Shown one piece after another: positions 10,950 to 55,750 of a stretch of 64,000 nucleotides of DNA (the first letter of the stretch is position 1; each line of letters begins with the position of its first letter). The position numbers and the translations under genes were made by a program. Source of the DNA: Acinetobacter sp. XS-4 (GTDB lineage: Bacteria > Pseudomonadota > Gammaproteobacteria > Pseudomonadales > Moraxellaceae); NCBI RefSeq assembly GCF_023920705.1, contig NZ_CP094657.1, positions 1,674,001 through 1,738,000 of the forward strand, in the 5' to 3' direction. The notes beneath the pieces were generated by a model that was given only the letters and a program-made list of their open reading frames with translations, did not search any database and was not told the DNA's origin.

Positions 10950-11621
10950 ATGATTGACAAAAGTAAGTCCTCTCTTAGCGAGGTACTATCGCAGATTAAA
11001 GATGGTGCAACCATTCTGATTGGTGGTTTTGGTACCGCAGGACAACCCGCTGAACTCATTGACGGACTCATTGAACTGGGTATTAAAGATTTAACGATTG
11101 TCAGCAATAACGCCGGTAATGGCGATTATGGTCTGGCTAAACTGCTTAAAGCTGGTTCGGTTAAAAAAGTAATCTGTTCTTTCCCACGTCAGGCAGACTC
11201 TTATGTGTTTGATGAACTGTACCGTGCTGGAAAGGTTGAGCTTGAAGTGGTACCGCAAGGTAATCTGGCTTGCCGTATTCAGGCAGCCGGTATGGGATTA
11301 GGTGCTGTGTTTACCCCAACAGGCTTTGGAACACTTTTAGCTGAAGGCAAAGAAACCCGCCAGATTGATGGTAAAGACTATGTACTCGAATATCCAATTA
11401 AGGCTGACTTTGCCTTGATTAAAGCTTACAAAGGCGACCGCTGGGGTAATCTGGTTTACCGTAAATCTGCACGTAACTTTGGCCCAATTATGGCCATGGC
11501 AGCGGATGTAACCATTGTTCAGGTTTCTGAAGTGGTTGAGCTAGGTGGATTAGATCCAGAGCACATCATCACCCCAGGTATCTTTGTACAGCATGTTGTA
11601 CAAGTACAGCCCGCACAATAA
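10950..11621 (+). CDS. pcaI: 3-oxoadipate CoA-transferase subunit A
   Basis: Alpha subunit of beta-ketoadipate:succinyl-CoA transferase, which moves CoA from succinyl-CoA to 3-oxoadipate. 223 residues; the family's glycine-rich CoA-binding start ATILIGGFGTAGQPAEL is at about 19-35, and FPRQADSYVF and PTGFGTLLAEGKETR follow. First gene of the pca-qui operon, 18 bp before its partner pcaJ. It is identical in protein to the second copy at 55079-55750; only three clustered synonymous changes were seen in the 3' part compared. Membership in the pca operon, rather than general acetoacetate metabolism, is set by context. Confidence 0.96.
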   Translation: MIDKSKSSLSEVLSQIKDGATILIGGFGTAGQPAELIDGLIELGIKDLTIVSNNAGNGDYGLAKLLKAGSVKKVICSFPRQADSYVFDELYRAGKVELEVVPQGNLACRIQAAGMGLGAVFTPTGFGTLLAEGKETRQIDGKDYVLEYPIKADFALIKAYKGDRWGNLVYRKSARNFGPIMAMAADVTIVQVSEVVELGGLDPEHIITPGIFVQHVVQVQPAQ

Positions 11622-11639
11622 GCAATAAGGAGAAATAAC

Positions 11640-12293
11640 ATGAGCTACCAGAAACTCAGCCGTGACCAGATTGCAAAACGTGTGGCACAAGATATTCCAG
11701 ATGGTGCCTATGTGAATTTGGGCATTGGTTTACCAACCAAGATTGCAAGCTACTTACCTAACGATAAAGATATTTTCCTTCATTCTGAAAATGGTCTATT
11801 GGCTTTTGGCCCACCACCAGCGGCAGGTGAAGAAGACCCTGAACTGATTAATGCAGGTAAAGAGTTTGTGACCATGCTTGAAGGCGGTAGCTTTTTCCAC
11901 CATGGCGATTCATTTGCGATGATGCGTGGTGGTCACCTTGATATTGCAGTGCTGGGTGCATTTCAGGTTGCAGCGAATGGTGACTTGGCGAACTGGCACA
12001 CGGGTGCACCGGATGCAATTCCTGCGGTGGGTGGTGCGATGGATTTGGCTGTAGGTGCTAAAAAAGTTTTTATCACCACAGACCATGTGACCAAGCAAGG
12101 TGAACCGAAGATTGTGGCTGAGCTGAGCTATCCAGTAACTGGAAAAAACTGCGTTGACCGTATTTACACAGACCTGTGTGTGATTGATGTGACTAAAGAT
12201 GGTTTAAAGGTGCTTGAGAAGGTGGAAGGTCTTAGCTTTGATGAGTTACAGGCTTTAACGGGTGCAACTTTGATTGATGCGACTCAAGGGTAA
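11640..12293 (+). CDS. pcaJ: 3-oxoadipate CoA-transferase subunit B
   Basis: Beta subunit of the 3-oxoadipate CoA-transferase, carrying the catalytic glutamate in the SENGLLAFGP motif at about 49-58. 217 residues, normal for the subunit. GIGLPTKIASYL and the glycine-rich VGGAMDLAVGAKKV block are typical of family I CoA-transferases. AAGGAG precedes the ATG. The protein differs from the cat copy (54407-55060) at a single position seen: Glu versus Lys in AAG-x-EDPE. Confidence 0.96.
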   Translation: MSYQKLSRDQIAKRVAQDIPDGAYVNLGIGLPTKIASYLPNDKDIFLHSENGLLAFGPPPAAGEEDPELINAGKEFVTMLEGGSFFHHGDSFAMMRGGHLDIAVLGAFQVAANGDLANWHTGAPDAIPAVGGAMDLAVGAKKVFITTDHVTKQGEPKIVAELSYPVTGKNCVDRIYTDLCVIDVTKDGLKVLEKVEGLSFDELQALTGATLIDATQG

Positions 12294-12305
12294 GGGAATA
12301 GGGAA

Positions 12306-13517
12306 ATGACATTAAAAAACGCTTATATCATCGATGCCATCCGTACTCCATTCGGCCGTTATGCCGGTGGTCTTGCACCTGTCCGTGCCGATGACCTTGG
12401 CGCTGTGCCGATTAAAGCACTCATGCAGCGTAACCCGAATGTAGATTGGGAACAGGTCGATGATGTGATCTATGGCTGTGCTAACCAAGCTGGTGAAGAT
12501 AACCGTAACGTCGGCCGTATGTCAGCACTACTTGCAGGTTTACCATATCAAGTGCCAGCAACCACCATTAACCGTTTGTGTGGTTCTTCACTCGATGCGA
12601 TTGCTATTGCTGCCCGTGCTATTAAAGCAGGTGAAGCGAACTTGGTGATTGCAGGTGGTGTGGAAAGCATGAGCCGTGCACCTTATGTGATGGGTAAGTC
12701 TGACAGTGCTTTTGGCCGTAGCCAAAAGATTGAAGACACCACCATGGGCTGGCGTTTCATTAACCCTAAACTTAAAGAATTATATGGTGTAGACACCATG
12801 CCCCAGACTGCCGAAAACGTGGCTGAACAGTTTAACGTTAATCGTGCAGATCAGGACCAGTTTGCCTTGGTAAGCCAACAACGCACCGCAAGCGCGCAAG
12901 CCAAAGGCTTTTTTTCTAAAGAAATCGTGGCAGTTGAAATCCCTCAGCGTAAGGGTGATGCTGTTGTGATTGATACCGATGAACATCCACGTGCATCAAC
13001 CACGCTTGAAGCTTTAAGCAAACTTAAACCTGTGGTTAAAGCAGATGGTTCTGTGACTGCGGGTAATGCTTCAGGTATTAATGATGGTGCTGCGGCTCTG
13101 CTGATTGCTTCTGATGATGCAGTTCAAGCCTACAACCTCAAACCGCGTGGCAAGATCATTGCTTCAACAGCAGTGGGTGTAGAACCGCGCATTATGGGTT
13201 TTGCTCCAGCACCAGCCATTAAAAAATTACTTAAACAAGCCAACCTGACTTTAGATCAGATGGATGTGATTGAGTTAAATGAAGCCTTTGCTGCACAAGC
13301 TTTGGCAGTGACTCGTGATTTAGATTTGCCAGATGATTCTAACAAGGTGAATCCAAACGGTGGTGCAATTGCATTGGGCCATCCACTGGGTGCATCAGGT
13401 GCACGCTTAGTCACTACAGCTTTAAACCAACTTGAACAAACAGGCGGCCGTTATGCTTTATGTTCAATGTGTATTGGTGTGGGCCAAGGCATCGCATTGA
13501 TTATTGAGAGAGTCTAA
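12306..13517 (+). CDS. pcaF: 3-oxoadipyl-CoA thiolase
   Basis: Last step of the beta-ketoadipate pathway: 3-oxoadipyl-CoA plus CoA gives succinyl-CoA and acetyl-CoA. 403-residue thiolase with nucleophile Cys in [11 protein letters not shown] (about 90), the [10 protein letters not shown] block, [16 protein letters not shown] and the second active-site Cys in [10 protein letters not shown] near the end. It starts 12 bp after pcaJ. Compared with catF it begins MTLKNAY instead of MKNAY, ends at ERV instead of ERVEAL, and has about seven internal substitutions, mainly in the 3' half. Confidence 0.96.
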
Positions 13518-13519
13518 TC

Positions 13520-14878
13520 ATGAGCCAGTTATATGCCAGCTTGTTTTATCAAAAAGATGTCACTGACATTTTTAGTGATTCATCTTTAATCGCATACATG
13601 ATTCAGGTTGAAGTTGCGTTAGCTCAAGCACAGGCAAAAGTTGGCGTGATTCCTCAAGATGCGGCTAATACCATTGCCCAAGTAGCTGAGCAGGCAATAG
13701 AAAAGTTTGACTTTTCAGCGTTGGCTGTAGCAACTGGCTTAGCTGGAAATATCGCAATTCCATTTGTAAAACAACTTACGGCAATTGTGAAAGATGTGGA
13801 TGAAGATGCTTCACGTTATGTGCATTGGGGAGCAACGAGTCAGGATATTTTAGACACAGCTTGTATTTTGCAATGCCGTGATGCGTTAAACATTGTGGAA
13901 GCACAACTTCAACAGTGCTACACCGCTGCATTACAACAAGCTAAGCAATATCGCTATCAAGTCATGATTGGGCGTACATGGTTGCAGCAAGCTTTACCAA
14001 TTACTTTAGGGCATAAGCTTGCTCGCTGGGCTTCTGCATTTAAACGTGATTTAGATCGTATCCAAGCAATGAAATCACGTGTACTCACTGCTCAGTTAGG
14101 CGGTGCTGTGGGTTCATTAGCTTCTTTGCAAGATCAAGGTTCACTTGTGGTCAGTGTATTTGCTCAGCAGTTGAATCTGACTGTACCGACAAGTACATGG
14201 CATGGTGAGCGTGATCGCATTGTAGAAATCGCAAGTGTGCTCGGCATCATTGTCGGGAATACGGGCAAGATGGCACGTGATTGGTCACTCATGATGCAAA
14301 CCGAAATTGCAGAATTGTTTGAACCAACAGCAAAGGGTCGTGGTGGTTCATCGACCATGCCGCATAAGCGTAATCCAGTCGCAGCAGCTTCAGTACTTGC
14401 AGCAGCGAATCGTGTACCAGCACTTATGTCTAGCATCTATCAAAGTATGGTGCAGGAACATGAGCGTAGCTTAGGCGCATGGCATGCAGAATGGTTAGCA
14501 ATCCCTGAAATTTTTCAGCTTTGTGCTGGAGCATTAAGTCGTACTGACGAAGTTTTACAAGGTTTCGAAGTTAATGCTGAGCATATGCAGCAGAACCTTG
14601 ACTGTACCAACGGGTTGATTATGGCGGAAGCTGTGATGATGGCGCTTGCTCCAAAAATTGGACGTTTAAATGCACATCATGTTGTTGAAGCAGCTTGTAA
14701 AACAGCCGTGGCTCAAAAGCAGCATTTATCTGAGGTTGTTAGTCAGTTAGATGAAGTAAAAGAACATTTTAGCCCAACAGAAATTTTGGAAATATTTAAA
14801 GCAGAAAACTATTTGGGCAACATTCAAGCTCAAATTGATGCTGTTCTGCAAGAAGCACAAGGAGGAGACATAAAGTGA
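13520..14878 (+). CDS. pcaB: 3-carboxy-cis,cis-muconate cycloisomerase
   Basis: Converts the ring-fission product of protocatechuate to 4-carboxymuconolactone. It belongs to the fumarase/aspartase superfamily: conserved blocks are HWGATSQDILDTA at about 95-107 and the signature GRGGSSTMPHKRNPVAA at about 272-288, with the mobile-loop Ser. 452 residues, typical. It follows pcaF by 2 bp and overlaps pcaD by 4 bp. It has no counterpart in the cat copy, so the pcaIJF/catIJF near-identity stops here. Confidence 0.95.
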   Translation: MSQLYASLFYQKDVTDIFSDSSLIAYMIQVEVALAQAQAKVGVIPQDAANTIAQVAEQAIEKFDFSALAVATGLAGNIAIPFVKQLTAIVKDVDEDASRYVHWGATSQDILDTACILQCRDALNIVEAQLQQCYTAALQQAKQYRYQVMIGRTWLQQALPITLGHKLARWASAFKRDLDRIQAMKSRVLTAQLGGAVGSLASLQDQGSLVVSVFAQQLNLTVPTSTWHGERDRIVEIASVLGIIVGNTGKMARDWSLMMQTEIAELFEPTAKGRGGSSTMPHKRNPVAAASVLAAANRVPALMSSIYQSMVQEHERSLGAWHAEWLAIPEIFQLCAGALSRTDEVLQGFEVNAEHMQQNLDCTNGLIMAEAVMMALAPKIGRLNAHHVVEAACKTAVAQKQHLSEVVSQLDEVKEHFSPTEILEIFKAENYLGNIQAQIDAVLQEAQGGDIK

Positions 14879-15660
14879 AACAGCTTATAACCAATCGACA
14901 AGGTAAGCAGCTCGCTGTATATACCGACGGATTAAAAGATGCTCCAGCACTTGTGCTATCTAACTCGTTAGGAACAGATCATGGAATGTGGCAGCCGCAA
15001 GTAGATGAGCTTAAAAGTCATTTTAATGTCATTACATACGATACACGTGGTCATGGCGAAAGTGATGTGATCGCTGAATCATCTTTACAAAATTTAGGTG
15101 AAGATGTTGCTGATATTTTAGATGCCTTAAATATTGAAAAAGCTCATTTTTGTGGCATTTCAATGGGCGGAATTACAGGGCTTTGGTTGGGTGTTCATTA
15201 TCCAGAGCGCTTTCTAAGCATTACTGTCGCGAACTCGGCAGCTAAAATTGGTCAAGCTGAAGCTTGGTTGAGTCGCGCAGAGTCAGTAGAACAAAATGGA
15301 CTGGCTGAATTGGTTAAAACCACGCACACACGTTGGTTTAGCGAAAAATTCGACTATCAACATAATGTGGTTGCACAAACGACGATTCAAAGTCTGGCAA
15401 ACACACCAGCACAAGGTTATGCCAATGCATGTCGTGCTTTAGCTCATGCTGATTTAAGAGATGAAATTACGCAAATCCAAGTTCCAGTATTGCTAATTGC
15501 AGGAACAGCAGATCCAGTGACGACAGTAGCAGATGCTGAGTTTATGCAGAATGCTATCAAGAATAGTCAAATTGCTAAATTGGAAGCATCTCATCTTTCT
15601 AATATTGAGCAACCGCAAAGATTTACTCAGGAATTGACTAGGTTTATTCAACAAATCTAA
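14875..15660 (+). CDS. pcaD: 3-oxoadipate enol-lactonase
   Basis: Alpha/beta hydrolase that opens 3-oxoadipate enol-lactone to 3-oxoadipate, where the protocatechuate and catechol branches meet. 261 residues; oxyanion region SNSLGTDHGMW, nucleophile elbow FCGISMGGITG (Ser about 103), the acid in GTADPVT and catalytic His in ASHLSNIEQP. It starts as a GTG overlapping the pcaB stop (GTGA), so it is translationally coupled. It is clearly related to CatD (52002-52781) but much more diverged than the IJF genes. Confidence 0.94.
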   Translation: MKQLITNRQGKQLAVYTDGLKDAPALVLSNSLGTDHGMWQPQVDELKSHFNVITYDTRGHGESDVIAESSLQNLGEDVADILDALNIEKAHFCGISMGGITGLWLGVHYPERFLSITVANSAAKIGQAEAWLSRAESVEQNGLAELVKTTHTRWFSEKFDYQHNVVAQTTIQSLANTPAQGYANACRALAHADLRDEITQIQVPVLLIAGTADPVTTVADAEFMQNAIKNSQIAKLEASHLSNIEQPQRFTQELTRFIQQI

Positions 15661-15702
15661 GAGCTTAGTCGTTTAAAAGGAATTGGCCTTAAGGAGGCAA
15701 AT

Positions 15703-17058
15703 ATGGCGTCTCAGGATTACGCTGCACCAAATAAAAGTATCGATGCTCAAGCATTGATTAATGATGCTCCACTTAGTAAGTATCAATGGATGATCGCAAT
15801 CATCTGTTTCTTAATTATTTTTACTGATGGTATCGATACTGCTGCAATGGGTTTTATCGCTCCAGCTTTGGCTCAAGATTGGGGTGTTGATCGCTCTCAG
15901 TTAGGCCCAGTGATGAGTGCTGCACTTGGTGGGATGATTATTGGGGCTTTGGTGTCTGGCCCAACAGCTGATCGGTTCGGTCGCAAAATTGTTTTGGCCG
16001 TTTCAATGCTGATTTTTGGTGGTTTCACTTTGGCATCAGCTTACGCAACCAACTTAGATAGCCTTGTCGTTTTACGCTTTTTGACAGGTATTGGCTTGGG
16101 TGCAGCTATGCCAAATGCCACCACATTATTTTCTGAATACTGTCCAACACGCATTCGTTCATTACTCGTGACATGCATGTTCTGTGGCTACAACTTAGGT
16201 ATGGCAACAGGTGGCTTTATTAGTAGCTGGCTTATCCCGACCTATGGTTGGCACAGTCTATTTTTACTTGGCGGTTGGTCACCTTTGATCTTAATGGTTT
16301 TAGTGATTTTTGTCTTACCTGAGTCTTACCGCTTTTTAATTGTTAAAGGTAAGAACCCTGAAAAAGTACGCAAAATCTTAAATCATATCGCACCAACTCA
16401 AGTTCAAAATGCGACTGCATTTCACGTACCTGAAGAGAAAACTGAAACAGCTCAAAAGAAAAATGTCTTTGGAATTATGTTTTCTAAACCATATGCAAAA
16501 GGAACACTTTTACTTTGGTTGACCTATTTCATGGGCTTGGTTGTTGTTTACTTGCTTACAAGCTGGTTACCGACACTTATGCGTGAAACTGGTGCTTCAA
16601 TGGAGCGTGCTGCATTTATTGGTGGTTTGTTCCAGTTTGGTGGTGTGGTGAGTGCATTGTTCATTGGTTGGGCGATGGACAAATTTAACCCGAACCGAGT
16701 CATTGCCATTTTCTACTTTGCTGCGGGTCTATTTGCGATTGCTGTGGGTCAAAGCTTAGGAAACTCAACATTACTTGCTGTATTGGTTCTTTGCGCAGGT
16801 ATCGCGATTAATGGTGCGCAATCTTCAATGCCAGCTTTAAGTGCTCGTTTCTATCCAACGCAGTGCCGTGCAACGGGTGTGTCTTGGATGACAGGTATTG
16901 GACGTTTCGGTGCGGTATTTGGTGCTTGGATTGGTGCCGTATTACTCGGTAATGATTGGTCGTTTACTGCCATTCTCAGTTTATTACTAATTCCAGCGAC
17001 TGCTGCGGCTGTTGCTGTATTTGTTAAATCACTTGTTGCGCATACCGATGCAACTTAA
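15703..17058 (+). CDS. pcaK: Aromatic acid:H+ symporter, MFS AAHS family
   Basis: Inner-membrane importer for 4-hydroxybenzoate/protocatechuate. 451 residues with 12 predicted membrane helices; the family motif DGIDTAAMGFIAPAL lies in helix 1 and the MFS loop motif GPTADRFGRKIV between helices 2 and 3. A strong AAGGAGG precedes the start. It sits between pcaD and pcaC, as in A. baylyi. Exact substrates are taken from the family and context rather than shown. Confidence 0.93.
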   Translation: MASQDYAAPNKSIDAQALINDAPLSKYQWMIAIICFLIIFTDGIDTAAMGFIAPALAQDWGVDRSQLGPVMSAALGGMIIGALVSGPTADRFGRKIVLAVSMLIFGGFTLASAYATNLDSLVVLRFLTGIGLGAAMPNATTLFSEYCPTRIRSLLVTCMFCGYNLGMATGGFISSWLIPTYGWHSLFLLGGWSPLILMVLVIFVLPESYRFLIVKGKNPEKVRKILNHIAPTQVQNATAFHVPEEKTETAQKKNVFGIMFSKPYAKGTLLLWLTYFMGLVVVYLLTSWLPTLMRETGASMERAAFIGGLFQFGGVVSALFIGWAMDKFNPNRVIAIFYFAAGLFAIAVGQSLGNSTLLAVLVLCAGIAINGAQSSMPALSARFYPTQCRATGVSWMTGIGRFGAVFGAWIGAVLLGNDWSFTAILSLLLIPATAAAVAVFVKSLVAHTDAT

Positions 17059-17073
17059 TAGAGGTCTATCACA

Positions 17074-18223
<1,150 letters not shown>

Positions 18224-18237
18224 TCGGGAGCACGAGC

Positions 18238-18867
18238 ATGAATAACTGGAATTTTCAGGAATTAAAAGAAACTCCATCTCAAACAGGTGGTCCTTACGTC
18301 CACATTGGTTTATTGCCACAACAAGCAAATATTGAAGTGTTTGAAAACAACTTTAATAACCAGTTAGTACAAGACCAAACTAAAGGCGAGCGTATTCGTC
18401 TTGAAGGTCAAGTATTTGACGGATTAGGTTTACCGCTGCGCGACGTGCTGATCGAGATTTGGCAAGCCGATGCGAATGGTATTTACCCAAGTCAGGCAGA
18501 TACGCGTGAGCAAAAAGCTGATCCTGCATTTCAGGGTTGGGGCCGTACTGGTGCTGACTTTGAAACAGGTATCTGGAGCTTCAATACAATTAAGCCGGGT
18601 GCTACAGCAGGTCGCAAAGGTTCAACTCAGGCGCCTCATATTGCATTAGTGATTTTCGCTCGCGGTATTAACTTAGGTCTTCACACACGTGTTTATTTTG
18701 AAGATGAAGCCGAAGCAAATGGCAATGATGCAATTCTAAATAGCATTGAATGGGCACCTCGTCGCCAAACTCTTATTGCAAAACGCTTTGAAGAAAATGG
18801 TGAAATTGTTTACCGCTTTGACATTCGTATTCAAGGCGATGACGAAACTGTATTTTTTGATATTTAA
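18238..18867 (+). CDS. pcaG: Protocatechuate 3,4-dioxygenase alpha subunit
   Basis: Non-iron subunit of the 3,4-dioxygenase; it shapes the active site with PcaH. 209 residues with the intradiol fold: ETPSQTGGPYVHIGLLP at the N-terminus, VLIEIWQADANGIYPS in the middle, then QAPHIALVIFARGIN, where the HIH iron ligands of PcaH are lost (HIA), as expected for alpha chains. It is the last pca gene; a terminator-like hairpin separates it from quiB. Confidence 0.95.
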   Translation: MNNWNFQELKETPSQTGGPYVHIGLLPQQANIEVFENNFNNQLVQDQTKGERIRLEGQVFDGLGLPLRDVLIEIWQADANGIYPSQADTREQKADPAFQGWGRTGADFETGIWSFNTIKPGATAGRKGSTQAPHIALVIFARGINLGLHTRVYFEDEAEANGNDAILNSIEWAPRRQTLIAKRFEENGEIVYRFDIRIQGDDETVFFDI

Positions 18868-18876
18868 GAAGTACCT

Positions 18877-18918
18877 AAGGCTACACATGATCGGCCATGG
18901 ATGCGTGTAGCCTTTTTT
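18877..18918 (+). terminator. Intrinsic terminator inside the pca-qui operon
   Basis: Perfect 10 bp stem AAGGCTACAC / GTGTAGCCTT with an 18-base loop that can itself pair (CATG...CATG), ended by six T residues. It begins 9 bp after the pcaG stop and ends 12 bp before quiB. Its position argues that qui genes are expressed by read-through, attenuation or a separate promoter. Confidence 0.8.
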
Positions 18919-18930
18919 AGGATGAATGAT

Positions 18931-19764
18931 ATGAACATGAAAACATTATTAAGCTTAAGTTTGCTTGCACTCCCATTTTTTACAGCACAGGCAAATGCTG
19001 AACCTGTTGCTTTAGCTACTCAAACACAATCTGCGACTACAGCTGTTAAAACAATTGTTCCGATTACAGCAAAAACCAAAGAACAAGCTTTAGCGCAAGC
19101 TCAAGTCATTGCAAATACAGCAGATGCTGATTTGGCAGAGTTTCGTATCGATTTACTCAGTTTTGCGAGTGATACAAAACAAGTGATTGCCTTGGGTCAT
19201 GAATTGAAAAAGATTTTAGGCAATAAACCAATGATTGCCACAATTCGTACCAAAAACGAAGGCGGTCAGCTTGAAATTAGCGATGCTGATTATGGCAAGA
19301 CATATCAGGCTTATTTAAAAAATCCGTTCATGGACTGGTTAGATGTTGAAATGTTCCGTGATCAAAAAGTAGTTTCAGAGATTGTTCAAAAAGCACATCA
19401 AAAGAAAGTATTAGTGGTGATGTCTAATCATGACTTCCAAAAAACACCAAGCCAAGATGAAATTGAAAAACGCTTGTTAAAACAAGATCAAATGGGCGCA
19501 GATATTCTAAAAATTGCCGTAATGCCAAAATCTAAACAAGACGTTTTCACTTTAATGAACGCGACTTTAAAAGTAAGTCAGCAAACCACTAAACCATTGT
19601 TGACGATGTCGATGGGGCAATTAGGTACGATTTCTCGTGTTGCCACAGCCAATATGGGGGGAAGTTATAGTTTTGGCATGATTGGCGAGGCGTCAGCACC
19701 GGGCCAAATTGATGTGACCAAGCTCAAACAGATTCTAAAAATCGTTCAACCAACAAACCCATAA
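18931..19764 (+). CDS. quiB: Catabolic 3-dehydroquinate dehydratase (type I), exported
   Basis: Dehydrates 3-dehydroquinate to 3-dehydroshikimate in quinate breakdown. The start at 18931 has AGGA 8 bp upstream; longer in-frame starts lie in the terminator. The first about 25 residues (MNMKTLLSLSLLALPFFTAQANA) form a Sec signal peptide, so the enzyme acts in the periplasm, unlike biosynthetic AroD. The type I barrel is seen in DLAEFRIDLLSF, the HDF block with catalytic His (VVMSNHDFQKTP) and the Schiff-base Lys in ADILKIAVMP; SMGQLGTISRV and the C-terminal GEASAPGQID follow. 277 residues. Confidence 0.93.
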   Translation: MNMKTLLSLSLLALPFFTAQANAEPVALATQTQSATTAVKTIVPITAKTKEQALAQAQVIANTADADLAEFRIDLLSFASDTKQVIALGHELKKILGNKPMIATIRTKNEGGQLEISDADYGKTYQAYLKNPFMDWLDVEMFRDQKVVSEIVQKAHQKKVLVVMSNHDFQKTPSQDEIEKRLLKQDQMGADILKIAVMPKSKQDVFTLMNATLKVSQQTTKPLLTMSMGQLGTISRVATANMGGSYSFGMIGEASAPGQIDVTKLKQILKIVQPTNP

Positions 19765-19783
19765 ATCATAAGGACATGATGAA

Positions 19784-21238: not shown

Positions 21239-21252
21239 TAACAATAAGGGAA

Positions 21253-21271: not shown

Positions 21272-21307
21272 AGCATAGAAATATAGAAATGATAAAAGGG
21301 ACTTGAA

Positions 21308-45422: not shown

Positions 45423-45430
45423 GCTCCATT

Positions 45431-46734: not shown

Positions 46735-49059
46735 ATGAAAAGGATGAAACCCATGCGTAAACAACGATTATTGAATGATATACAAAAGATATTAGCGCTT
46801 AATTTATCAATAGCTGCGAGCTTTTGGGGATTAAATACTCAAGCTTATGCTCATGGTGGACATGCCGAAATGGTGTCTCTTTATCAAAACATGAGTGAGC
46901 AAGGCGCTAAAGTTGTCAAAGACGATTTTACCAACACTTATATGATTACCAAAGGCTCTATGATGGTTCGAGCTAAGCCAAATTCAAATCAGGTTTTGGT
47001 GAATGGTAAACCTTTCAAGCTCAGTGTGCCTCTATTAATCAAAGATGGTAAGCCAGTTATTGGGAAAGATTTTTTTAATGAAGTATTCCAGTCTGGTTTA
47101 GATCAAACTTTTAAAATTGAAAATACGTTCCATCCGCTTAATAGTTTAAATTCTGACGAAATCAAAAAGACATTTGATGTCATTAACAGCTCAAAATATG
47201 CCTATAAAAATATGCGTTTTTCAGAGTTAAAGCTAAAGGAACCGGAAAAAGCAAAAGTTTGGGATTACTTTATCAATCACAAAGAATTTAAAGAAGACCG
47301 CATAGCATCTTTCATTTTATTAAAAGGCAACCAAGCGATTGAAGGTGAAGTTAACCTTAACACTCAACAAGTCACAAAATGGAATGTACTTAAAGACACT
47401 CATGGAATGGTGTTGCTCGATAATTTTGAAGCTGTACAACGCGTAATTGAGACAAGTAAAGAATATCAGGAAGCTTTACGGAAACGCGGCATTACTGATG
47501 TGAAGAAGGTGATTGCTACACCGCTAACTGTTGGATATTTTGGCGGTAAAGATGGGCTTGATAAACAACTCAATATATTAAAAGTTGTCGCTTATCTCGA
47601 TGTCGGCGATGGCAATTATTGGGCGCATCCTATTGAAAATTTAGTTGCTGTAATTGATTTAGATAAAGAAAAAATTATTAAGATTGAAGAAGGTGCGATT
47701 ATTCCCGTGCCAATGGCAAATCGACCTTATATGTCGGATAAGCCAGTAACAAGCAAGATAAAACCACTCAATATTACTGAACCTGAGGGCAAAAACTTTA
47801 GCATTACAGGTCAAACCATACATTGGGGCAACTGGTGTTTGCATGTGGCGTTAGATTCTCGTGTTGGCTTACAGCTTTCAACAGTGACCTATAAAGATAA
47901 AGGCGTTAAACGTAAAGTCATGTATGAAGGGAACTTGGGTGGAATGGTAGTTCCATATGGTGACCCTGATATTGGTTGGTACTTCAAATCTTATCTGGAC
48001 TCTGGAGAATATGGGATGGGAACACTTACCTCATCTATTCTTCCGGGAACAGATGCACCCGACAACGCTGTTTTACTTGATGCTGTGATTGCAGATTACA
48101 AAGGCCAGCCACAAGTGATTCCAAATGCTATTGCTGTATTTGAACGTTATGCAGGACCTGAATATAAACATCACGAAATTTTTGGTAACCAAGATGCCAG
48201 TGAAGCCCGCCGTGAACTTGTCGTGCGCTGGATTAGTACGGTTGGAAACTACGATTACATGTTTGACTGGGTATTTGCCCAAAATGGTGTAATTGGGATT
48301 AATGCGGGTGCAACGGGTATTGAAGCTGTTAAAGGTGTTAAATCACGCACCATGCATGACAGTACTGCAAAAGAAGACACTAAATATGGAACTTTAATTG
48401 ACCATAATATTGTGGGTACAACGCACCAACATATCTATAACTTCCGCTTAGACATGGATGTAGATGGGGAAAACAACAGCTTTATGCATATGGACCCTGT
48501 GGTGAAAGCCAATGACAAAGGTGGTGTTCGTACAAGCTCAATGCAAATCGATAGTAAAGTCATTACGAATGAGCAAAATGCAGCTGAAAAATTTGATCCG
48601 TCTACTATTCGCTTACTTACGAATTTCAACAAGGAAAACAAATTAGGTAATCCGGTTTCTTACCAATTGATTCCGTTTGCAGGTGGAACACACCCTGTGG
48701 CGAAAGGAGCCAATTTTTCTAAAGATGAATGGTTATTTAAGCGTTTGAACTTTATGGATAAGCAAATTTGGGTGACTCAGTACAATCCAGACGAACGCTA
48801 CCCTGAAGGGAAATATTCAAACCGTTCAACTCATGATACAGGGTTAGGACAGTTCATTGGCAACAATGAAAATATTGAAAATAAAGACCTTGTGGTGTGG
48901 ATGACAACAGGTACAACCCATGTGGCACGTGCTGAAGAATGGCCAATCATGCCGACAGAGTGGGTGAATACACTCATCAAACCTTGGAACTTCTTTGACA
49001 ACACTCCGACTTTAAACTTGGGTGAAGAAGAGCAAAACACGCAGCATGACCATCACTAA
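46735..49059 (+). CDS. tynA: Copper/TPQ primary-amine oxidase, periplasmic
   Basis: Oxidises phenylethylamine, tyramine and related amines to aldehydes with release of ammonia and peroxide. 774 residues, with a signal peptide ending near QAYAHGGHAE. The TPQ cofactor Tyr is Y506 in VGNYDY; copper ligands are H564, H566 (TTHQHIYNF) and H729 (GTTHVARAEEW). The catalytic base lies in WYFKSYLDSGEYGMG. Overall it follows E. coli TynA closely, including the N-terminal D1 domain. His-rich DHH tail. Upstream AGGGAT serves as ribosome binding site. Confidence 0.96.
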   Translation: MKRMKPMRKQRLLNDIQKILALNLSIAASFWGLNTQAYAHGGHAEMVSLYQNMSEQGAKVVKDDFTNTYMITKGSMMVRAKPNSNQVLVNGKPFKLSVPLLIKDGKPVIGKDFFNEVFQSGLDQTFKIENTFHPLNSLNSDEIKKTFDVINSSKYAYKNMRFSELKLKEPEKAKVWDYFINHKEFKEDRIASFILLKGNQAIEGEVNLNTQQVTKWNVLKDTHGMVLLDNFEAVQRVIETSKEYQEALRKRGITDVKKVIATPLTVGYFGGKDGLDKQLNILKVVAYLDVGDGNYWAHPIENLVAVIDLDKEKIIKIEEGAIIPVPMANRPYMSDKPVTSKIKPLNITEPEGKNFSITGQTIHWGNWCLHVALDSRVGLQLSTVTYKDKGVKRKVMYEGNLGGMVVPYGDPDIGWYFKSYLDSGEYGMGTLTSSILPGTDAPDNAVLLDAVIADYKGQPQVIPNAIAVFERYAGPEYKHHEIFGNQDASEARRELVVRWISTVGNYDYMFDWVFAQNGVIGINAGATGIEAVKGVKSRTMHDSTAKEDTKYGTLIDHNIVGTTHQHIYNFRLDMDVDGENNSFMHMDPVVKANDKGGVRTSSMQIDSKVITNEQNAAEKFDPSTIRLLTNFNKENKLGNPVSYQLIPFAGGTHPVAKGANFSKDEWLFKRLNFMDKQIWVTQYNPDERYPEGKYSNRSTHDTGLGQFIGNNENIENKDLVVWMTTGTTHVARAEEWPIMPTEWVNTLIKPWNFFDNTPTLNLGEEEQNTQHDHH

Positions 49060-49072
49060 AAATGCACATTAA

Positions 49073-49108
49073 CTAAGAATGGGTAACTTATTCATTACCC
49101 ATTCTTAG
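49073..49108 (+). other. Hairpin between tynA and porin gene
   Basis: A 14-pair stem CTAAGAATGGGTAA / TTACCCATTCTTAG, loop of 8, no T tail (GGTCTGG follows). It is probably an mRNA-stabilising or attenuating structure within the operon. Confidence 0.6.
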
Positions 49109-49143
49109 GGTCTGGTAGACCATTCACAAAAAAGGAATTTTGT

Positions 49144-50421
49144 ATGAAAACTCTACTTTCTCAAGTCATGAGAGGGACTCTCTTTGTCTCATTTTTTTCA
49201 ACTGTGCATGCTGGCGAGCTTGAAATTAAACCGACTTTTGAAGCAACTTTTGGGGCTTTTAGTAGCGGTAAAAGCTATAACGGCGAAAACTTAGATGATG
49301 AAAGAATCAATTGGCAAGAAGGCCATCTTAAATATGGCGCTAAAGGGCAATATACCTTCAAAAACAATCAGCTCTATGCAAGTTTGAGCGGTATTAGCTC
49401 AGCAACATTTGGCGATGGTGACGCAGGCCAAAATAGTAATGGTAAGGAACGTAAAACGGATGTGAATGAATGGATCATTGGTTTTAAAGACGGTACTAAT
49501 AAAGATGAATTAACGACTTATGATTTAAGTATTGGTCGACAAAATATCATGATTGGTGATGGGTTTTTCATTGCAGGTGATGCGTTAAACCTCGGTAAAG
49601 CACCTGCAAACGGCGCACTAGATCGTGGCGGGGCATATTATCTGGCAGCTCGTCGAAGCTTTGATTTTACAAGTTTGCTTCAATATAAACCGCAAGAGAA
49701 TACAACGCTAAAACTGGCTTATCTAAAGTCAGACAATAAAGCACAATTTTCCCCAGAACTCTTTGTGACTGATCTGATGTATCAACTTAAAGATAAAGGC
49801 GTTGGGTTCACTTACTTAAATGTATTAGACCTTGAAGATGCTGAACAGATTTCAGGGCGCGAAGATCTTAAAAATTATGCTTTACGCTTGAATTATCAAC
49901 CTTTGCCAGAACTACAGGTTAAAACTGAGTTTGTTGTACAAGATAAAAAAGATGGCCAAGAAAATGCTGGCTACTTAGCGCTGAACTATAACTTTTTATC
50001 TTCAAAATATACCCCCTCATTAGGCTACCGTTTTAGCCATTTTTCAGACCAATATGACACCATGTTTTATGGAAATACAGTCGGGTTTGGTACATGGTTT
50101 CAGGGCGAAGTTGCCGGAAACTATGCTGGTCCATTCAATAAAAATGCAGATATTCATCAAGTTTCTTACATGATGAATTTGAAAGAAAATTTTATGTTGG
50201 GTGCTTTGGCCTATAAGTTCAAAACAGTAAATAAGTCTTTAACCAATGTGGATGGACATGAGCTGGATGTCTTTTCAGTCTGGTCAGTGAATAAAAAATT
50301 CAACGTTATTCCTTTAGTGGGACTCTATAAACCAAAACAGGATATCCATAGCGGCGGTACTCAAAATTACGATGATAAAACCAATGTGTATGCGCAGTTG
50401 ATTCTGCAATACATCTATTAA
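49144..50421 (+). CDS. Outer-membrane porin (alginate-export-like barrel)
   Basis: 425 residues with signal peptide ending TVHAGELEIK and a beta-barrel with alternating aromatics: WQEGHLKYGAKGQYTFKNNQLYASLSG, GRQNIMIGDGFFIAGDALNLG and the C-terminal YAQLILQYIY ending in an aromatic. It resembles AlgE-type/alginate-export-like porins found near amine and aromatic genes. It probably admits the amine substrate of TynA. Confidence 0.78.
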   Translation: MKTLLSQVMRGTLFVSFFSTVHAGELEIKPTFEATFGAFSSGKSYNGENLDDERINWQEGHLKYGAKGQYTFKNNQLYASLSGISSATFGDGDAGQNSNGKERKTDVNEWIIGFKDGTNKDELTTYDLSIGRQNIMIGDGFFIAGDALNLGKAPANGALDRGGAYYLAARRSFDFTSLLQYKPQENTTLKLAYLKSDNKAQFSPELFVTDLMYQLKDKGVGFTYLNVLDLEDAEQISGREDLKNYALRLNYQPLPELQVKTEFVVQDKKDGQENAGYLALNYNFLSSKYTPSLGYRFSHFSDQYDTMFYGNTVGFGTWFQGEVAGNYAGPFNKNADIHQVSYMMNLKENFMLGALAYKFKTVNKSLTNVDGHELDVFSVWSVNKKFNVIPLVGLYKPKQDIHSGGTQNYDDKTNVYAQLILQYIY

Positions 50422-50454
50422 TAGATCCTTTTTAATGAATTGAGAGAAATAAAA

Positions 50455-51942
50455 ATGAGTGAAGTTCAGATTTTACAAAGCGTAAAGCAATTTATGGCAC
50501 GTCAACATGGACACTTTATTGATGGAAAGTTAGTTGCTGCCGAGCATTTAGATAAAGTGGATATTGTAAATCCATCGACTGAACAAGTTGTTGCTCAAAT
50601 TAGTATTGGTAGTCAACATGATGTCGAAAATGCGGTGAAAAGTGCTGAACATGCTTTTCAAAATGCTTGGGCTGAAACTACGCCGTATGAACGTGGCGTT
50701 AAACTGAACAAGCTAGCCGATTTAATTGAGCAATATGGTGAAGAACTTGCACAGCTCGAATCGTTGTCTACTGGAAAACTTATCAATACTTCAAGACATC
50801 TTGAAGTCGCACAATCTGTTATTTTCTTGAGATATTTTGCAGGGTGGGCAACCAAAATTAATGGTCAAACCATGCAACCCTCTATTCCTTCTATGCAAGG
50901 TGAGAAATATACGGCCTTTACTTTAAGACAACCGATTGGTGTGGTTGCAGGGATTGTGCCTTGGAATTTTTCACTGATGATCGGTGTTTGGAAAATTGGT
51001 TCAGCTTTAACAACTGGTTGTACCATTGTGCTTAAACCAAGTGAGTTTGCCAGCTTATCTTTATTACGTTTAGCTGAACTTGCCATCGAGGCAGGTATTC
51101 CGGCTGGTGTAATTAATGTGGTGACAGGTAAGGGCGATACAGGACAATATTTAATTGAGTCACCGCTCGTTAAGAAAGTCTCATTTACAGGTTCAGTGCC
51201 CACAGGTATTGCGATTGGTAAACTTGCGATGAGCAGTGATTTAACTCGGGTAAGTCTGGAGCTGGGTGGTAAAAATGCCATAGCGGTTTTAGCCGATGCA
51301 AATATTGATGAGATTTTACCAACTTTGTTGCAAGCAACTTTTGTACATCAAGGTCAGGTTTGCGCATCCCCAGAGCGTTTTTTTGTACACCGTACAAAAC
51401 ATGATGAACTTGTCGAGAAACTCTCGAAAGCACTCTCGCAGTTCAAAATTGGATCGGCTATGGATGAAGGAAGTATGTTTGGTCCGCTCTCTAATCAGCC
51501 ACATTTTAATAAAGTGAAACATTATTTAGATATGGCTAAAGCCAACAACCAGATTATTGCTGGTGGTGAGACTCTAGATCAGACAGGATATTTTGTACAG
51601 CCGACTTTGATTTCCTTCAAAAATACGGATGATCCTTTATTTTCAGAGGAAACTTTTGGTCCAGTGGTCGGGGTAATGCCATTCGAAACTGATGAAGAAC
51701 TTATTCAGCTTATGAATCAATCTCGCTTTGGTTTAACCGCAAGTATTTGGACAAATGATTTGTCTAAAGCTTTGCGTTTAATTCCTAAAATTGAAGCAGG
51801 AACTTTGTGGGTTAATATGCATACGTTCTTAGATCCATCAGTTCCATTTGGCGGAGTAAAAGCTTCGGGAATTGGCAGAGAGTTTTCAGATGCATTTATC
51901 GAAGATTACACCGAATTAAAATCGGTCATGATTCGGTATTAA
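50455..51942 (+). CDS. feaB: Phenylacetaldehyde dehydrogenase
   Basis: NAD-dependent aldehyde dehydrogenase, 495 residues from the ATG at 50455 (MSEVQILQSVKQFMARQHG). Cofactor and catalytic blocks: VPWNFSLMIGVWKIGSAL, the general base Glu in VSLELGGKNAIAV and the nucleophile Cys in HQGQVCASPERFFV. Next to tynA, it should oxidise phenylacetaldehyde to phenylacetate; the phenylacetate degradation genes are not in this window. Similar in type to E. coli FeaB. Confidence 0.9.
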   Translation: MSEVQILQSVKQFMARQHGHFIDGKLVAAEHLDKVDIVNPSTEQVVAQISIGSQHDVENAVKSAEHAFQNAWAETTPYERGVKLNKLADLIEQYGEELAQLESLSTGKLINTSRHLEVAQSVIFLRYFAGWATKINGQTMQPSIPSMQGEKYTAFTLRQPIGVVAGIVPWNFSLMIGVWKIGSALTTGCTIVLKPSEFASLSLLRLAELAIEAGIPAGVINVVTGKGDTGQYLIESPLVKKVSFTGSVPTGIAIGKLAMSSDLTRVSLELGGKNAIAVLADANIDEILPTLLQATFVHQGQVCASPERFFVHRTKHDELVEKLSKALSQFKIGSAMDEGSMFGPLSNQPHFNKVKHYLDMAKANNQIIAGGETLDQTGYFVQPTLISFKNTDDPLFSEETFGPVVGVMPFETDEELIQLMNQSRFGLTASIWTNDLSKALRLIPKIEAGTLWVNMHTFLDPSVPFGGVKASGIGREFSDAFIEDYTELKSVMIRY

Positions 51943-51962
51943 GTTTAAAAGTTACAAGATAT

Positions 51963-51990
51963 AAAAAATGGCCGTTATAGGCCATTTTTT
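51963..51990. terminator. Bidirectional terminator
   Basis: Perfect stem AAAAAATGGCC-gttata-GGCCATTTTTT between the convergent feaB and catD genes; it can work on both strands. Confidence 0.9.
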
Positions 51991-52001
51991 AGTCATTAAA
52001 A

Positions 52002-52781
52002 TTAACCTAATAAAAAATCTTTTAGAATTTTATTAAAAGCTTCTGGCTGCTCGACATTGGAAATATGAGAGGCATCTATTTCTGCAAGCTTTGATTGAGG
52101 AATGCGTTGTTGCATAAATTCACCATCTGCGATAGTCGTTACTGGGTCTTGAGTTCCAGCAATCACCAATACAGAAATTTTAATGTCTTTTAACTGTTCG
52201 CGGACATCCGCTTTAGCCAAAGCCTCACAACAATTGGCATAACCCATTGCGCTGCCAGCACTTAAGTCGTTACACAGGTTGTTGACGATTGAAGCATGAC
52301 TTTGGATAAAGGGATCTGTAAACCATCGCGAAGCTGCTGTAGCTGCGATCGGTTGTAAACCTTGCTCACGTACTAATTTTGCACGATCAAACCATGCCTG
52401 TTCTTGTCCAATTTTAGCGGCAGTATTTGCCACAACTATATGACTAAAATGGTCAGGGTAATGAATCGCCAGCCATTGACCGGTTAAACCACCCATAGAA
52501 ATTCCACAAAAAGCAGCTTTGCTAATATTCAGATGATCCAGTAAACGGACAACATCTTCACCTAATTGCTCTACAGTATATGGACCGTCAGGCGTAGATG
52601 ATGAACCGTGACCACGAGTGTCATAGCAGATCACAAAAAATTGATCTTTTAACTCATTAAACTGTTTTTGCCACATGCCATAGTTGGTGCCCAAAGAATT
52701 GGAAAACACCAGAGCAGGGGAAGATGGTTTGCCAAAGGTTTGATAGTTAATTTGTGCATCGGCAGATTGGAAAGATGGCAT
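52002..52781 (-). CDS. catD: 3-oxoadipate enol-lactonase, cat copy
   Basis: Isofunctional with PcaD. 259 residues (MPSFQSADAQINYQTFG) from the ATG at 52781, preceded by AAGGAG; an upstream in-frame ATG lies in catF. Same hydrolase landmarks as PcaD: SNSLGTNYGMW, FCGISMGGLTG, GTQDPVT and ASHISNVEQP. Clearly diverged from PcaD in DNA, unlike the neighbouring IJF genes. Last gene of catBCAIJFD, 10 bp after catF. Confidence 0.93.
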   Translation of the reverse strand: MPSFQSADAQINYQTFGKPSSPALVFSNSLGTNYGMWQKQFNELKDQFFVICYDTRGHGSSSTPDGPYTVEQLGEDVVRLLDHLNISKAAFCGISMGGLTGQWLAIHYPDHFSHIVVANTAAKIGQEQAWFDRAKLVREQGLQPIAATAASRWFTDPFIQSHASIVNNLCNDLSAGSAMGYANCCEALAKADVREQLKDIKISVLVIAGTQDPVTTIADGEFMQQRIPQSKLAEIDASHISNVEQPEAFNKILKDFLLG

Positions 52782-52791
52782 TTGTTTCTCC

Positions 52792-54006
52792 TTAAAGTGC
52801 TTCAACACGTTCAATAATCAATGCGATGCCTTGGCCTACACCAATACACATTGAACATAAGGCATAACGGCCGCCTGTTTGTTCAAGCTGGTTTAAAGCT
52901 GTAGTGACTAAGCGTGCACCTGATGCACCAAGTGGGTGACCCAAAGCAATTGCACCGCCGTTTGGATTTACCTTGTTAGAATCATTTGGTAAGCCTAAAT
53001 CACGGGTCACGGCCAAAGCCTGTGCAGCAAAGGCTTCATTTAACTCAATCACATCCATCTGATCTAAAGTCAGGTTGGCTTGTTTAAGTAATTTTTTAAT
53101 GGCTGGTGCCGGAGCAAAACCCATAATGCGCGGTTCTACACCCACTGCTGTTGAAGCAATGATCTTGGCACGCGGTTTTAAGTTGTAGGTTTGAACTGCC
53201 TCATCAGAAGCAATAAGCAATGCGGCTGCACCATCGTTAATGCCTGAAGCATTACCCGCAGTGACAGAACCATCTGCTTTAACCACAGGTTTAAGTTTGC
53301 TTAAAGCTTCAAGCGTGGTCGATGCACGTGGGTGTTCATCGGTATCAATCACAACAGCATCACCCTTACGCTGAGGGATTTCAACTGCCACGATTTCTTT
53401 AGAAAAAAAGCCTTTGGCTTGCGCGCTTGCGGTGCGTTGTTGGCTTACCAAGGCAAACTGGTCCTGATCTGCACGATTAACGTTGAACTGTTCAGCCACG
53501 TTTTCGGCAGTCTGGGGCATGGTGTCTACACCATATAATTCTTTAAGTTTTGGGTTGATGAAACGCCAGCCCATGGTGGTGTCTTCAATCTTTTGGCTAC
53601 GGCCAAAAGCACTGTCAGACTTACCCATCACATAAGGTGCACGGCTCATGCTTTCTACACCACCTGCAATCACCAAGTTCGCTTCACCTGCCTTAATAGC
53701 ACGGGCAGCAATAGCAATCGCATCGAGTGAAGAACCACACAAACGGTTAATGGTGGTTGCTGGCACTTGATATGGTAAACCAGCAAGTAGTGCTGACATA
53801 CGGCCGACGTTACGGTTATCTTCACCGGCTTGGTTGGCGCAGCCATAAATCACATCATCGACCTGTTCCCAATCTACACTTGGGTTACGCTGCATGAGTG
53901 CTTTAATCGGCACAGCGCCAAGGTCATCGGCACGGACAGGTGCAAGACCACCGGCATAACGGCCAAATGGAGTACGGATGGCATCGATGATATAAGCATT
54001 TTTCAT
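52792..54006 (-). CDS. catF: 3-oxoadipyl-CoA thiolase, cat copy
   Basis: 404-residue thiolase with the same active site as PcaF ([23 protein letters not shown]). Nearly identical to PcaF; the start is MKNAY, the tail ERVEAL, and differences seen include Ser for Asn at about 33, Glu/Thr/Ala for Asp/Ala/Gly around 275-285 and Gly/Asn for Asp/Asp in DLxLPxDS. Separated from catJ by a palindromic element, unlike the 12 bp pcaJ-pcaF gap. Confidence 0.95.
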
Positions 54007-54065
54007 TCTAAATTTTGTCCTTTACTTCAGGCCTTTTTAGCCATTCTCCGTAAGTATTTCGCAGT

Positions 54066-54379
54066 GGCGACATGGATGTCGCCTCGTTGCTCAGCACAAC
54101 AGGGATGTTGTGTCTGAGTAACAAAGGTTTTTGGTTACTTTTTTAAAAAAGTGACACGAATTAACTGGTGGCATCTGGCTTAAACAGATAAGACTCCGTT
54201 GTGAGGCTTTATAAATTTTCATATCAACGAATAACATCACGGCTGTAATTTACTGTGATATCTGTAGGTCTGTTGTATAAGCGATACCTTACTTTTGAAA
54301 GGTCAAAAGTAACAAAAACCTTTGTTGAACAGAGGAGGCTTCCTTGCCTCCCTGTCCAACGGGCGACATCCATGTCGCC
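54066..54379. repeat. Palindromic repeat element inserted between catJ and catF
   Basis: Outer ends are GGCGACATGGATGTCGCC (54066-54083) and its near-copy GGCGACATCCATGTCGCC (54362-54379), each an 8 bp hairpin. Inside each comes a second hairpin opening GTTG and closing CAAC or GTAAC (54086-54122; 54324-54360) whose stem sequences differ but pair, then AACAAAGGTTTTTG and a third hairpin of TTACTTTT type (54134-54155; 54289-54312). The element is thus a large inverted repeat of three hairpins per arm. Flanks to about 54021 and 54395 may belong. It resembles interspersed repeats that I recall from many Acinetobacter genomes; that is memory, not a search. Confidence 0.8.
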
Positions 54380-54406
54380 TGTCACGATAGTTACTACTAT
54401 TTAAAC

Positions 54407-55060
54407 TTACCCTTGAGTCGCATCAATCAAAGTTGCACCAGTCAAAGCCTGTAACTCATCAAAGCTAAGACCTTCCACCTTCTCAAGCACCTTTAAACCA
54501 TCTTTAGTCACATCAATCACACACAGGTCTGTGTAAATACGGTCAACGCAGTTTTTTCCAGTTACTGGATAGCTCAGCTCAGCCACAATCTTCGGTTCAC
54601 CTTGCTTGGTTACATGATCTGTGGTGATAAATACTTTTTTAGCACCTACAGCCAAATCCATCGCACCACCCACCGCAGGAATTGCATCCGGTGCACCCGT
54701 GTGCCAGTTCGCCAAGTCACCATTCGCTGCAACCTGAAATGCACCCAGCACTGCAATATCAAGGTGACCACCACGCATCATCGCAAATGAATCGCCATGG
54801 TGGAAAAAGCTACCGCCTTCAAGCATGGTCACAAACTCTTTACCTGCATTAATCAGTTCAGGGTCTTCTTTACCTGCCGCTGGTGGTGGGCCAAATGCCA
54901 ATAGACCATTTTCAGAATGAAGGAAAATATCTTTATCGTTAGGTAAGTAGCTTGCAATCTTGGTTGGTAAGCCAATGCCCAAATTCACATAGGCACCATC
55001 TGGAATATCTTGTGCCACACGTTTTGCAATCTGGTCACGGCTGAGTTTCTGGTAGCTCAT
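54407..55060 (-). CDS. catJ: 3-oxoadipate CoA-transferase subunit B, cat copy
   Basis: 217 residues, one residue different from PcaJ as far as seen. Catalytic Glu in SENGLLAFGP. AAGGAG before the ATG, and the I-J spacer is the same as in the pca copy. In the cat operon it makes the catechol branch self-sufficient. Confidence 0.95.
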   Translation of the reverse strand: MSYQKLSRDQIAKRVAQDIPDGAYVNLGIGLPTKIASYLPNDKDIFLHSENGLLAFGPPPAAGKEDPELINAGKEFVTMLEGGSFFHHGDSFAMMRGGHLDIAVLGAFQVAANGDLANWHTGAPDAIPAVGGAMDLAVGAKKVFITTDHVTKQGEPKIVAELSYPVTGKNCVDRIYTDLCVIDVTKDGLKVLEKVEGLSFDELQALTGATLIDATQG

Positions 55061-55078
55061 GTTATTTCTCCTTATTGC

Positions 55079-55750
55079 TTATTGTGCGGGCTGTACTTGT
55101 ACAACATGCTGTACAAAGATACCTGGGGTGATGATGTGCTCTGGATCTAATCCACCTAGCTCAACCACTTCAGAAACCTGAACAATGGTGACATCTGCAG
55201 CCATGGCCATAATTGGGCCAAAGTTACGTGCAGATTTACGGTAAACCAGATTACCCCAGCGGTCGCCTTTGTAAGCTTTAATCAAGGCAAAGTCAGCCTT
55301 AATTGGATATTCGAGTACATAGTCTTTACCATCAATCTGGCGGGTTTCTTTGCCTTCAGCTAAAAGTGTTCCAAAGCCTGTTGGGGTAAACACAGCACCT
55401 AATCCCATACCGGCTGCCTGAATACGGCAAGCCAGATTACCTTGCGGTACCACTTCAAGCTCAACCTTTCCAGCACGGTACAGTTCATCAAACACATAAG
55501 AGTCTGCCTGACGTGGGAAAGAACAGATTACTTTTTTAACCGAACCAGCTTTAAGCAGTTTAGCCAGACCATAATCGCCATTACCGGCGTTATTGCTGAC
55601 AATCGTTAAATCTTTAATACCCAGTTCAATGAGTCCGTCAATGAGTTCAGCGGGTTGTCCTGCGGTACCAAAACCACCAATCAGAATGGTTGCACCATCT
55701 TTAATCTGCGATAGTACCTCGCTAAGAGAGGACTTACTTTTGTCAATCAT
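55079..55750 (-). CDS. catI: 3-oxoadipate CoA-transferase subunit A, cat copy
   Basis: 223 residues, protein identical to PcaI. In the compared 3' third, DNA differs at only three clustered synonymous sites (GCAGCGGATGTAACC versus GCTGCAGATGTCACC). Its upstream sequence is unrelated to that of pcaI. A hairpin lies in the 144 bp between catA and catI. Confidence 0.95.
   Translation of the reverse strand: MIDKSKSSLSEVLSQIKDGATILIGGFGTAGQPAELIDGLIELGIKDLTIVSNNAGNGDYGLAKLLKAGSVKKVICSFPRQADSYVFDELYRAGKVELEVVPQGNLACRIQAAGMGLGAVFTPTGFGTLLAEGKETRQIDGKDYVLEYPIKADFALIKAYKGDRWGNLVYRKSARNFGPIMAMAADVTIVQVSEVVELGGLDPEHIITPGIFVQHVVQVQPAQ

Follow-up and report, generated by a model that had tools for sequence, protein, structure and literature searches.

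Why do two copies of the same three genes on one chromosome remain nearly identical when the sequences on either side of them have diverged? This question is raised by a 64,000-nucleotide stretch of the Acinetobacter sp. XS-4 genome (bases 1,674,001–1,738,000 of the 4,171,404-base single-contig genome, G000; hereafter, the window), which carries pcaIJF on one strand and the paralogous catIJF on the other, with the start codons of pcaI and catI 44.8 kb apart. The two sets are very probably old paralogues whose likeness has been maintained by gene conversion recurring in patches and without crossover. The observations that carry this reading are the pattern of identity along the genes, a permutation test, the grouping of the paralogues by genome, and the patchy tracts found in other species.

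Identity and boundaries of the two arms

Gene models were assigned by profile scores, in bits, against TIGR families. On the plus strand, pcaI (3-oxoadipate CoA-transferase subunit A; TIGR02429, 403 bits) lies at 10950..11621, pcaJ (subunit B; TIGR02428, 296 bits) at 11640..12293, and pcaF (3-oxoadipyl-CoA thiolase; TIGR02430, 753 bits) at 12306..13517. Their paralogues are encoded on the minus strand: catI at 55079..55750 (3 codons differ from pcaI, all synonymous), catJ at 54407..55060 (8 codons differ from pcaJ), and catF at 52792..54006 (TIGR02430, 755 bits). Together, they form the inverted repeat pointed out in an earlier interpretation of the bare sequence (hereafter, the sequence-only reading). 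The arms match between 10943–12294 and 54406–55757 (99% identity) and between 12304–13520 and 52798–54014 (95%). The statement in that reading that the sets match almost base for base is true of the coding genes; full collinearity did not hold, because catJ and catF are 400 bp apart, compared with 12 bp in the pca set.

When the arms were aligned base by base, the first 551 bases from the start of I contained no mismatch, whereas the base preceding the ATG was already mismatched, placing the beginning of the match exactly at the start codon. Beyond the arms, identity fell sharply: in bins of 50 bases, it was 35–47% upstream and mostly 31–60% downstream. Within the arms, the difference between the copies increased from 0.4% in I and 1.2% in J to 2.3% in the first 600 nt of F and 5.4% in its last 591 nt. 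All three features (the exact start, the diverged flanks, and the low variation in I and J with a rise in the 3' part of F) had been pointed out in the sequence-only reading and were reproduced here. At third codon positions, the copies differed by 1.3% in I, 3.2% in J, and 10.5% in F, and 50 of the 58 differing codons were synonymous (synonymous/nonsynonymous: I, 3/0; J, 7/1; F, 40/7). Because the differences are few and mostly synonymous, protein constraint cannot account for the identity of the arms.

Homogenization within genomes

We searched 175 Acinetobacter genomes, one per species, of which 167 contained a match to IJF DNA. For comparison, we sampled 47 of the genomes that hold two or three sets (XS-4 among them), which gave 99 copies, and added the single copy of G087; G060 was excluded from the divergence analysis because of runs of N in its arms. 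Genomes are designated by number (e.g., G015, A. calcoaceticus ANC 3811; G086, A. seifertii; G066 and G067, A. pittii; G060 and G061, A. nosocomialis). The genomes closest to XS-4 belong to the A. calcoaceticus–baumannii (Acb) complex, and the closest in terms of IJF was G062.

The pcaIJF and catIJF genes of XS-4 differed by 2.5%, whereas the nearest copy in another genome differed by 5.8% from pcaIJF and by 6.0% from catIJF. Across the 47 genomes, the nearest copy was within the same genome for 59 of the 99 copies; in G014, the F genes of the two copies differed by 6.6% (codon alignment). In a phylogenetic tree of 56 copies from 28 genomes, same-genome pairs were sisters in 23 cases, those of XS-4 with support of 100, and the pca/cat label changed 27 times (mean of shuffled labels, 19.0). 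A single clade of the 28 pca copies was rejected (p-AU 1.5e-46), as was a single pca clade within 14 Acb genomes, whether for F (8e-93), the 3' half of F (3e-52), or I (0.001). The edge at the start of I occurred at the same base in all 16 Acb pairs, with low matching upstream, indicating that it is an old limit of homology and not the edge of a recent event.

Probable conversion tracts

In each pair, the longest stretch of consecutive polymorphic sites at which the copies agreed was compared with permutations (1000 in the Acb complex and 500 outside it), with G091, G098, G049, and third copies left out. In XS-4, a run of 152 agreeing sites in I was reached in none of the 1000 permutations, and the same was true of G086 (J, 245 sites), G062 (I–J), G061 (F), and G150 (J). 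Outside the complex, none of the 500 permutations reached the runs of G007, G012 (F), G025, G026, G031, G074, G092, G116, and G165, nor those of G096, whose tract extended from I to the first bases of F, and G097, whose tract spanned F together with the end of J. The positions of the tracts varied between species, indicating that different pieces were converted in different species. The run in XS-4, together with the low within-genome distance and the sister positions in the tree, upholds the proposal of the sequence-only reading that these genes are homogenized by gene conversion.

Under this explanation, homologous recombination, probably of the RecA type, would copy one arm onto the other repeatedly and in patches, and the latest events in XS-4 would have taken in I and J, with the 5' part of F covered less recently. 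The tracts cannot extend past the start codon of I or the end of F because nothing beyond is homologous. Crossovers would be rare or would be removed by selection, since each of the two operons, which are under different control, would end up with the tail of the other.

The catJ–catF spacer

The catJ–catF spacer (54007..54406, minus strand) interrupts the collinearity of the arms. Measured to the base homologous with the start of pcaF, it is 394 nt long in XS-4 and 258–598 nt long in 14 other Acb cat copies, and the J–F spacer of the Acb pca copies is 11–12 nt. The cat copy of G068 and the third copy of G045 have a spacer of 12 nt, and those of the third copies of G067 and G068 are 371 and 462 nt, respectively. 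Third IJF sets, which lack both pcaB and catD, were observed in three Acb genomes (L110 in G067, L117 in G068, and L101 in G045); in G068 and G045, the two in which the neighbors were scanned, the set lies behind an alpha/beta-hydrolase gene.

The spacer in the window folds as a very stable nested hairpin (z-score −11.7) and has partial relatives elsewhere in the genome: its 16 matches comprise 3 to itself or its inverted halves and 13 elsewhere, at 9 places, of 24–119 bases. Judged by eye, at least three unlike versions of the spacer occur between species, and we read it as an intergenic repeat element. A consensus scan of the spacer found no promoter and no terminator, and the sole match to a known RNA (17.5 bits, against a gathering score of 80) was taken as chance.

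Because the spacer cannot be crossed without being erased or copied, I–J and F would have been converted in partly separate events, or in one event with the loop repaired back. In a single-changepoint scan of 47 pairs, the changepoint lay within 100 bp of the J/F junction in five (G012, G025, G086, G096, and G097) and at the homology edges in many. The long tracts of G086, G096, and G097, in which the spacers are unlike, stop within 50 bp of the junction. Since a tract that crossed the junction would make the spacers alike, this pattern of tract ends is partly built in, and we regard the spacer as a barrier to conversion only as a lead. The short spacers of the G068 cat copy and the G045 third copy could derive from tracts that crossed the junction. 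The 200-base stretches on either side of the spacer still differ, at 12 and 10 positions between the pca and cat copies of G068 and at 14 and 15 positions between the pca and third copies of G045, so any such tract is not fresh.

Alternative explanations

Not every observation sits easily with gene conversion. The copies were more than 20% diverged in 6 of the 47 genomes (G004, G010, G049, G112, G127, and G161), and 5 of 16 Acb genomes (G015, G045, G066, G067, and G069) had no copy with its nearest relative in the same genome. The longest agreeing run was not significant in G015, G069, G066, and G067 (reached in 109, 518, 441, and 257 of 1000 permutations, respectively) or in G010, G135, G141, and G151 (251, 185, 126, and 180 of 500), and the remaining genomes were marginal (1–44 per 1000 or 1–41 per 500). 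The cat copy of G068 has a short, pca-type spacer, yet its flanks differ from those of the pca copy, so a crossing tract would have to be short or old. Donor and recipient copies were not distinguishable, because the median pca–pca, cat–cat, and pca–cat distances between Acb species were nearly equal. Exchange with the DNA of other strains or species could also yield part of the same pattern. Replacement of this kind, by transformation bringing like alleles to both loci, is in keeping with the mosaic appearance of other cluster genes between species (divergence from XS-4: ispD, 3.5–21.9%; catB, 4.8–12.3%; pairs of unequal length were skipped in these control-gene comparisons, leaving, for example, 72 of 120 pairs for pcaB). 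We nevertheless consider it unlikely, because for each IJF copy of XS-4 the closest match is its partner and none of the other 98 copies compared. Uptake of sister-cell DNA by transformation would amount to conversion along a different path and would look the same.

The very high identity of I and J might also be expected if the whole arm had recently been copied anew into the other locus rather than converted piecewise. However, the divergence is graded along the arm, from 0.4 to 5.4%, the cat copy retains its own J–F spacer, and the edge is shared by all 16 Acb genomes, which makes recent re-duplication extremely improbable. A collapsed repeat in the assembly is scarcely credible. In draft genome G060 (L122 and L123), both arms do contain runs of N, which is what assembly breaks at near-identical repeats would be expected to produce, but XS-4 is a single 4.17-Mb contig whose two copies are told apart by 62 of 766 polymorphic sites and by the spacer. 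Finally, the 39-kb segment might be flipped by crossover between the arms in a fraction of cells or in certain strains, acting as a switch of an evolutionary or regulatory kind, and inverted arms of approximately 2.5 kb with 95–99% identity would in principle suffice. This is very unlikely in view of the parental arrangement of the flanks in the Acb genomes (one genome per species), the lack of joints between catA or catB and pcaB among 65 other loci, and the disconnection of the pcaBDKCHG genes from their own promoter that an inversion would probably entail, as set out below. Repeated conversion without crossover thus remains our preferred explanation.

Inversion and layout of the copies

The pca arm was flanked by ispD (9860..10609, plus strand; TIGR00453, 215 bits) upstream and pcaB (13520..14878, plus strand; TIGR02426, 385 bits) downstream in all 17 Acb genomes. 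The cat arm was flanked by catA (55895..56962, minus strand; TIGR02439, 479 bits) upstream and catD (52002..52814, minus strand; TIGR02427, 298 bits) downstream in 16 of 17, the exception being G091, in which catF is cut off by the end of the contig. Swapped flanks were found in none of these 17 genomes, each representing one species and G091 being incomplete on the cat side, and neither catA nor catB was joined to pcaB in any of 65 loci of other Acinetobacter. The inversion envisaged in the sequence-only reading has therefore left no trace in these genomes, although at one genome per species inversions that are rare or confined to particular strains could escape notice. Its suggestion that the segment could invert without loss holds for gene content but not for operon wiring, because a crossover in IJF swaps the operon tails. 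Read from the gene order, the products would be catBCA-IJF-pcaBDKCHG and the pca promoter-IJF-catD. Judging from gene order and pathway logic, growth on catechol would survive, because PcaD and CatD fall under the same 3-oxoadipate enol-lactonase model, and growth on protocatechuate would be deprived of its own induction. Such an exchange of tails, with protocatechuate induction lost, predicts selection against crossovers.

The layout was compared in 31 same-contig pairs, after copies on split contigs and G060, G049, G071, and G165 were left out (gaps, unclear class, or three copies). Distance between the copies and their layout were rejected as drivers of homogenization (distance against divergence: Spearman rho 0.17, p 0.37). 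The copies of G012, G026, G092, and G096 were 0.7–1.3 Mb apart, two of them in direct orientation, yet differed by only 0.1–3.4%; other pairs at these distances differed by 6.8–23.7%. Closeness and inverted layout are thus not needed for homogenization. All 22 pairs less than 400 kb apart were inverted (14/14 in the Acb complex, at 38–82 kb, and 8/8 others), and of the nine pairs more than 600 kb apart, three were inverted and six direct. Because close direct repeats would delete the intervening DNA, the uniformly inverted short-range pattern fits selection on crossover products; we offer this as a lead, the genomes being related, and claim no test.

G+C content of IJF

When 52 of the 54 open reading frames of the window were ranked by third-position GC (GC3), the two sets of I, J, and F took places 1, 2, 3, 6, 7, and 8. 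A 1994 paper reportedly dealt with an atypical G+C content and codon usage of the A. baylyi catIJF genes. To compare genomes, we used the GC3 excess of IJF over neighbors in the same operon; the single-copy state was checked by thiolase hits, leaving out G002 (two hits), G046 (none at threshold), and G087 (no scored neighbors). The excess was +9.5 points in 16 two-copy Acb genomes (above zero in 16/16), +5.2 in 31 other two-copy Acinetobacter (28/31), +3.0 in 24 single-copy Acinetobacter (median 1.9; 17/24), and +0.8 in 11 Psychrobacter genomes that each had a single strong match to IJF (7/11). Two-copy and single-copy Acinetobacter differed (p 0.0003, or 0.02 with the Acb complex removed), and the p value for single-copy Acinetobacter against Psychrobacter was 0.19. 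Across the 47 genomes, the excess decreased as within-genome divergence increased (rho −0.34, p 0.019).

These trends make GC-biased conversion a lead as the source of the excess. Counting against it are two single-copy genomes with large values (G079, 21.8; G104, 12.1) and a strongly homogenized genome, G026, with an excess of just 1.6. Phylogenetic pairing on the IJF protein tree yielded five independent pairs on supported branches, mostly in the predicted direction, but was not significant (median sign-test p 0.5 at the median threshold). It is therefore possible, although rather doubtful at present, that recurrent GC-biased conversion between the paralogues raised the G+C content of IJF above that of its operon neighbors, while selection on crossovers forbids direct repeats at short range. 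If so, the genus would offer a naturally occurring test of biased conversion acting between two loci on the same bacterial chromosome, in which relatives with one copy serve as controls. Expression would be controlled for in such a test of bacterial GC-biased gene conversion, since converted genes and unconverted neighbors share an operon. In bacteria, recombination has been linked to higher G+C through biased gene conversion (Lassalle et al. 2015, PMC4450053). The main text of that paper makes no use of the term "paralog"; the recombining partners considered here are two loci of one chromosome.

Other genes in the window

The segment between the arms (13518..52791) contains pcaBD, pcaK, pcaHG, an aroD-type dehydratase, a PQQ dehydrogenase, a PcaR/PcaU-family regulator, ring-hydroxylation-type genes, FeaR, an amine oxidase, an aldehyde dehydrogenase, and catD. 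This broadly agrees with the pca, quinate-type, FeaR, and amine oxidase content given in the sequence-only reading; its "iac" genes were named by none of the models used. G015, which has the shortest segment among the Acb genomes (38 kb), lacks the amine oxidase present in the other 15 genomes searched. Upstream of catA, catC (56977..57267, minus strand; TIGR03221, 163 bits) and catB (57291..58397, minus strand; TIGR02534, 617 bits) are followed by a regulator at 58498–59412, the best score of which was for CatM (547.6 bits, under the cut-off of 580).

The PcaR/PcaU-family regulator lies at 28178–28990 (minus strand; regulator match at 28181–28936), within the segment and approximately 17 kb downstream of pcaI, and ispD instead occupies the position upstream of pcaI. 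This placement was the same in six Acb genomes checked; in G131, G097, and G092, by contrast, pcaI has a divergently oriented family member directly upstream. A second family member with a higher score is encoded elsewhere in the XS-4 genome. The divergence of ispD from that in the window was 20.0–21.9% in G061, G086, G150, and G006 and 3.5–11.3% in the other 11 Acb genomes compared, a split that looks like allele replacement beside the pca arm.

Comparison with known systems

Gene conversion between pcaIJF and catIJF was reportedly described in A. baylyi ADP1 by the Ornston laboratory in 1987–1995. That case involves the same genes in the same two operons, the same homogenization, and likewise diverged pcaD/catD flanks, but the clusters are said to be much further apart there; in XS-4, they are separated by 45 kb, and one copy contains a long spacer. 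Inverted pairs of rRNA operons or of insertion sequences, between which inversions occur, resemble the present arrangement in having long inverted homologous arms. The present case differs in that no inverted arrangement was seen in the 17 Acb genomes and in that the arms lie inside operons, so that a crossover exchanges their tails.

No paper on conversion between pcaIJF and catIJF was among the literature matches listed; the sole match for Acinetobacter with catIJF concerns a Burkholderia, and the terms catIJF, pcaIJF, and gene conversion have no occurrences in the available part of PMC12455638. The concerted evolution of duplicated genes, reportedly the subject of papers such as PMC2720389 and PMC3924837, is similar in that paralogues within a genome are more alike than orthologues between genomes. 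Here, however, the units are segments of bacterial operons, the tracts are bounded by nonhomologous flanks, and a spacer interrupts one copy. The XS-4 locus is thus a good example of a known phenomenon, to which the present analysis adds a genus-wide view, the spacer, and the G+C lead, none of which formed part of the sequence-only reading. Our results indicate that homogenization does not depend on how far apart the copies lie or how they are oriented, and that what was a classic case in a single laboratory strain appears to be widespread and ongoing in the genus, with tract edges that can be read.

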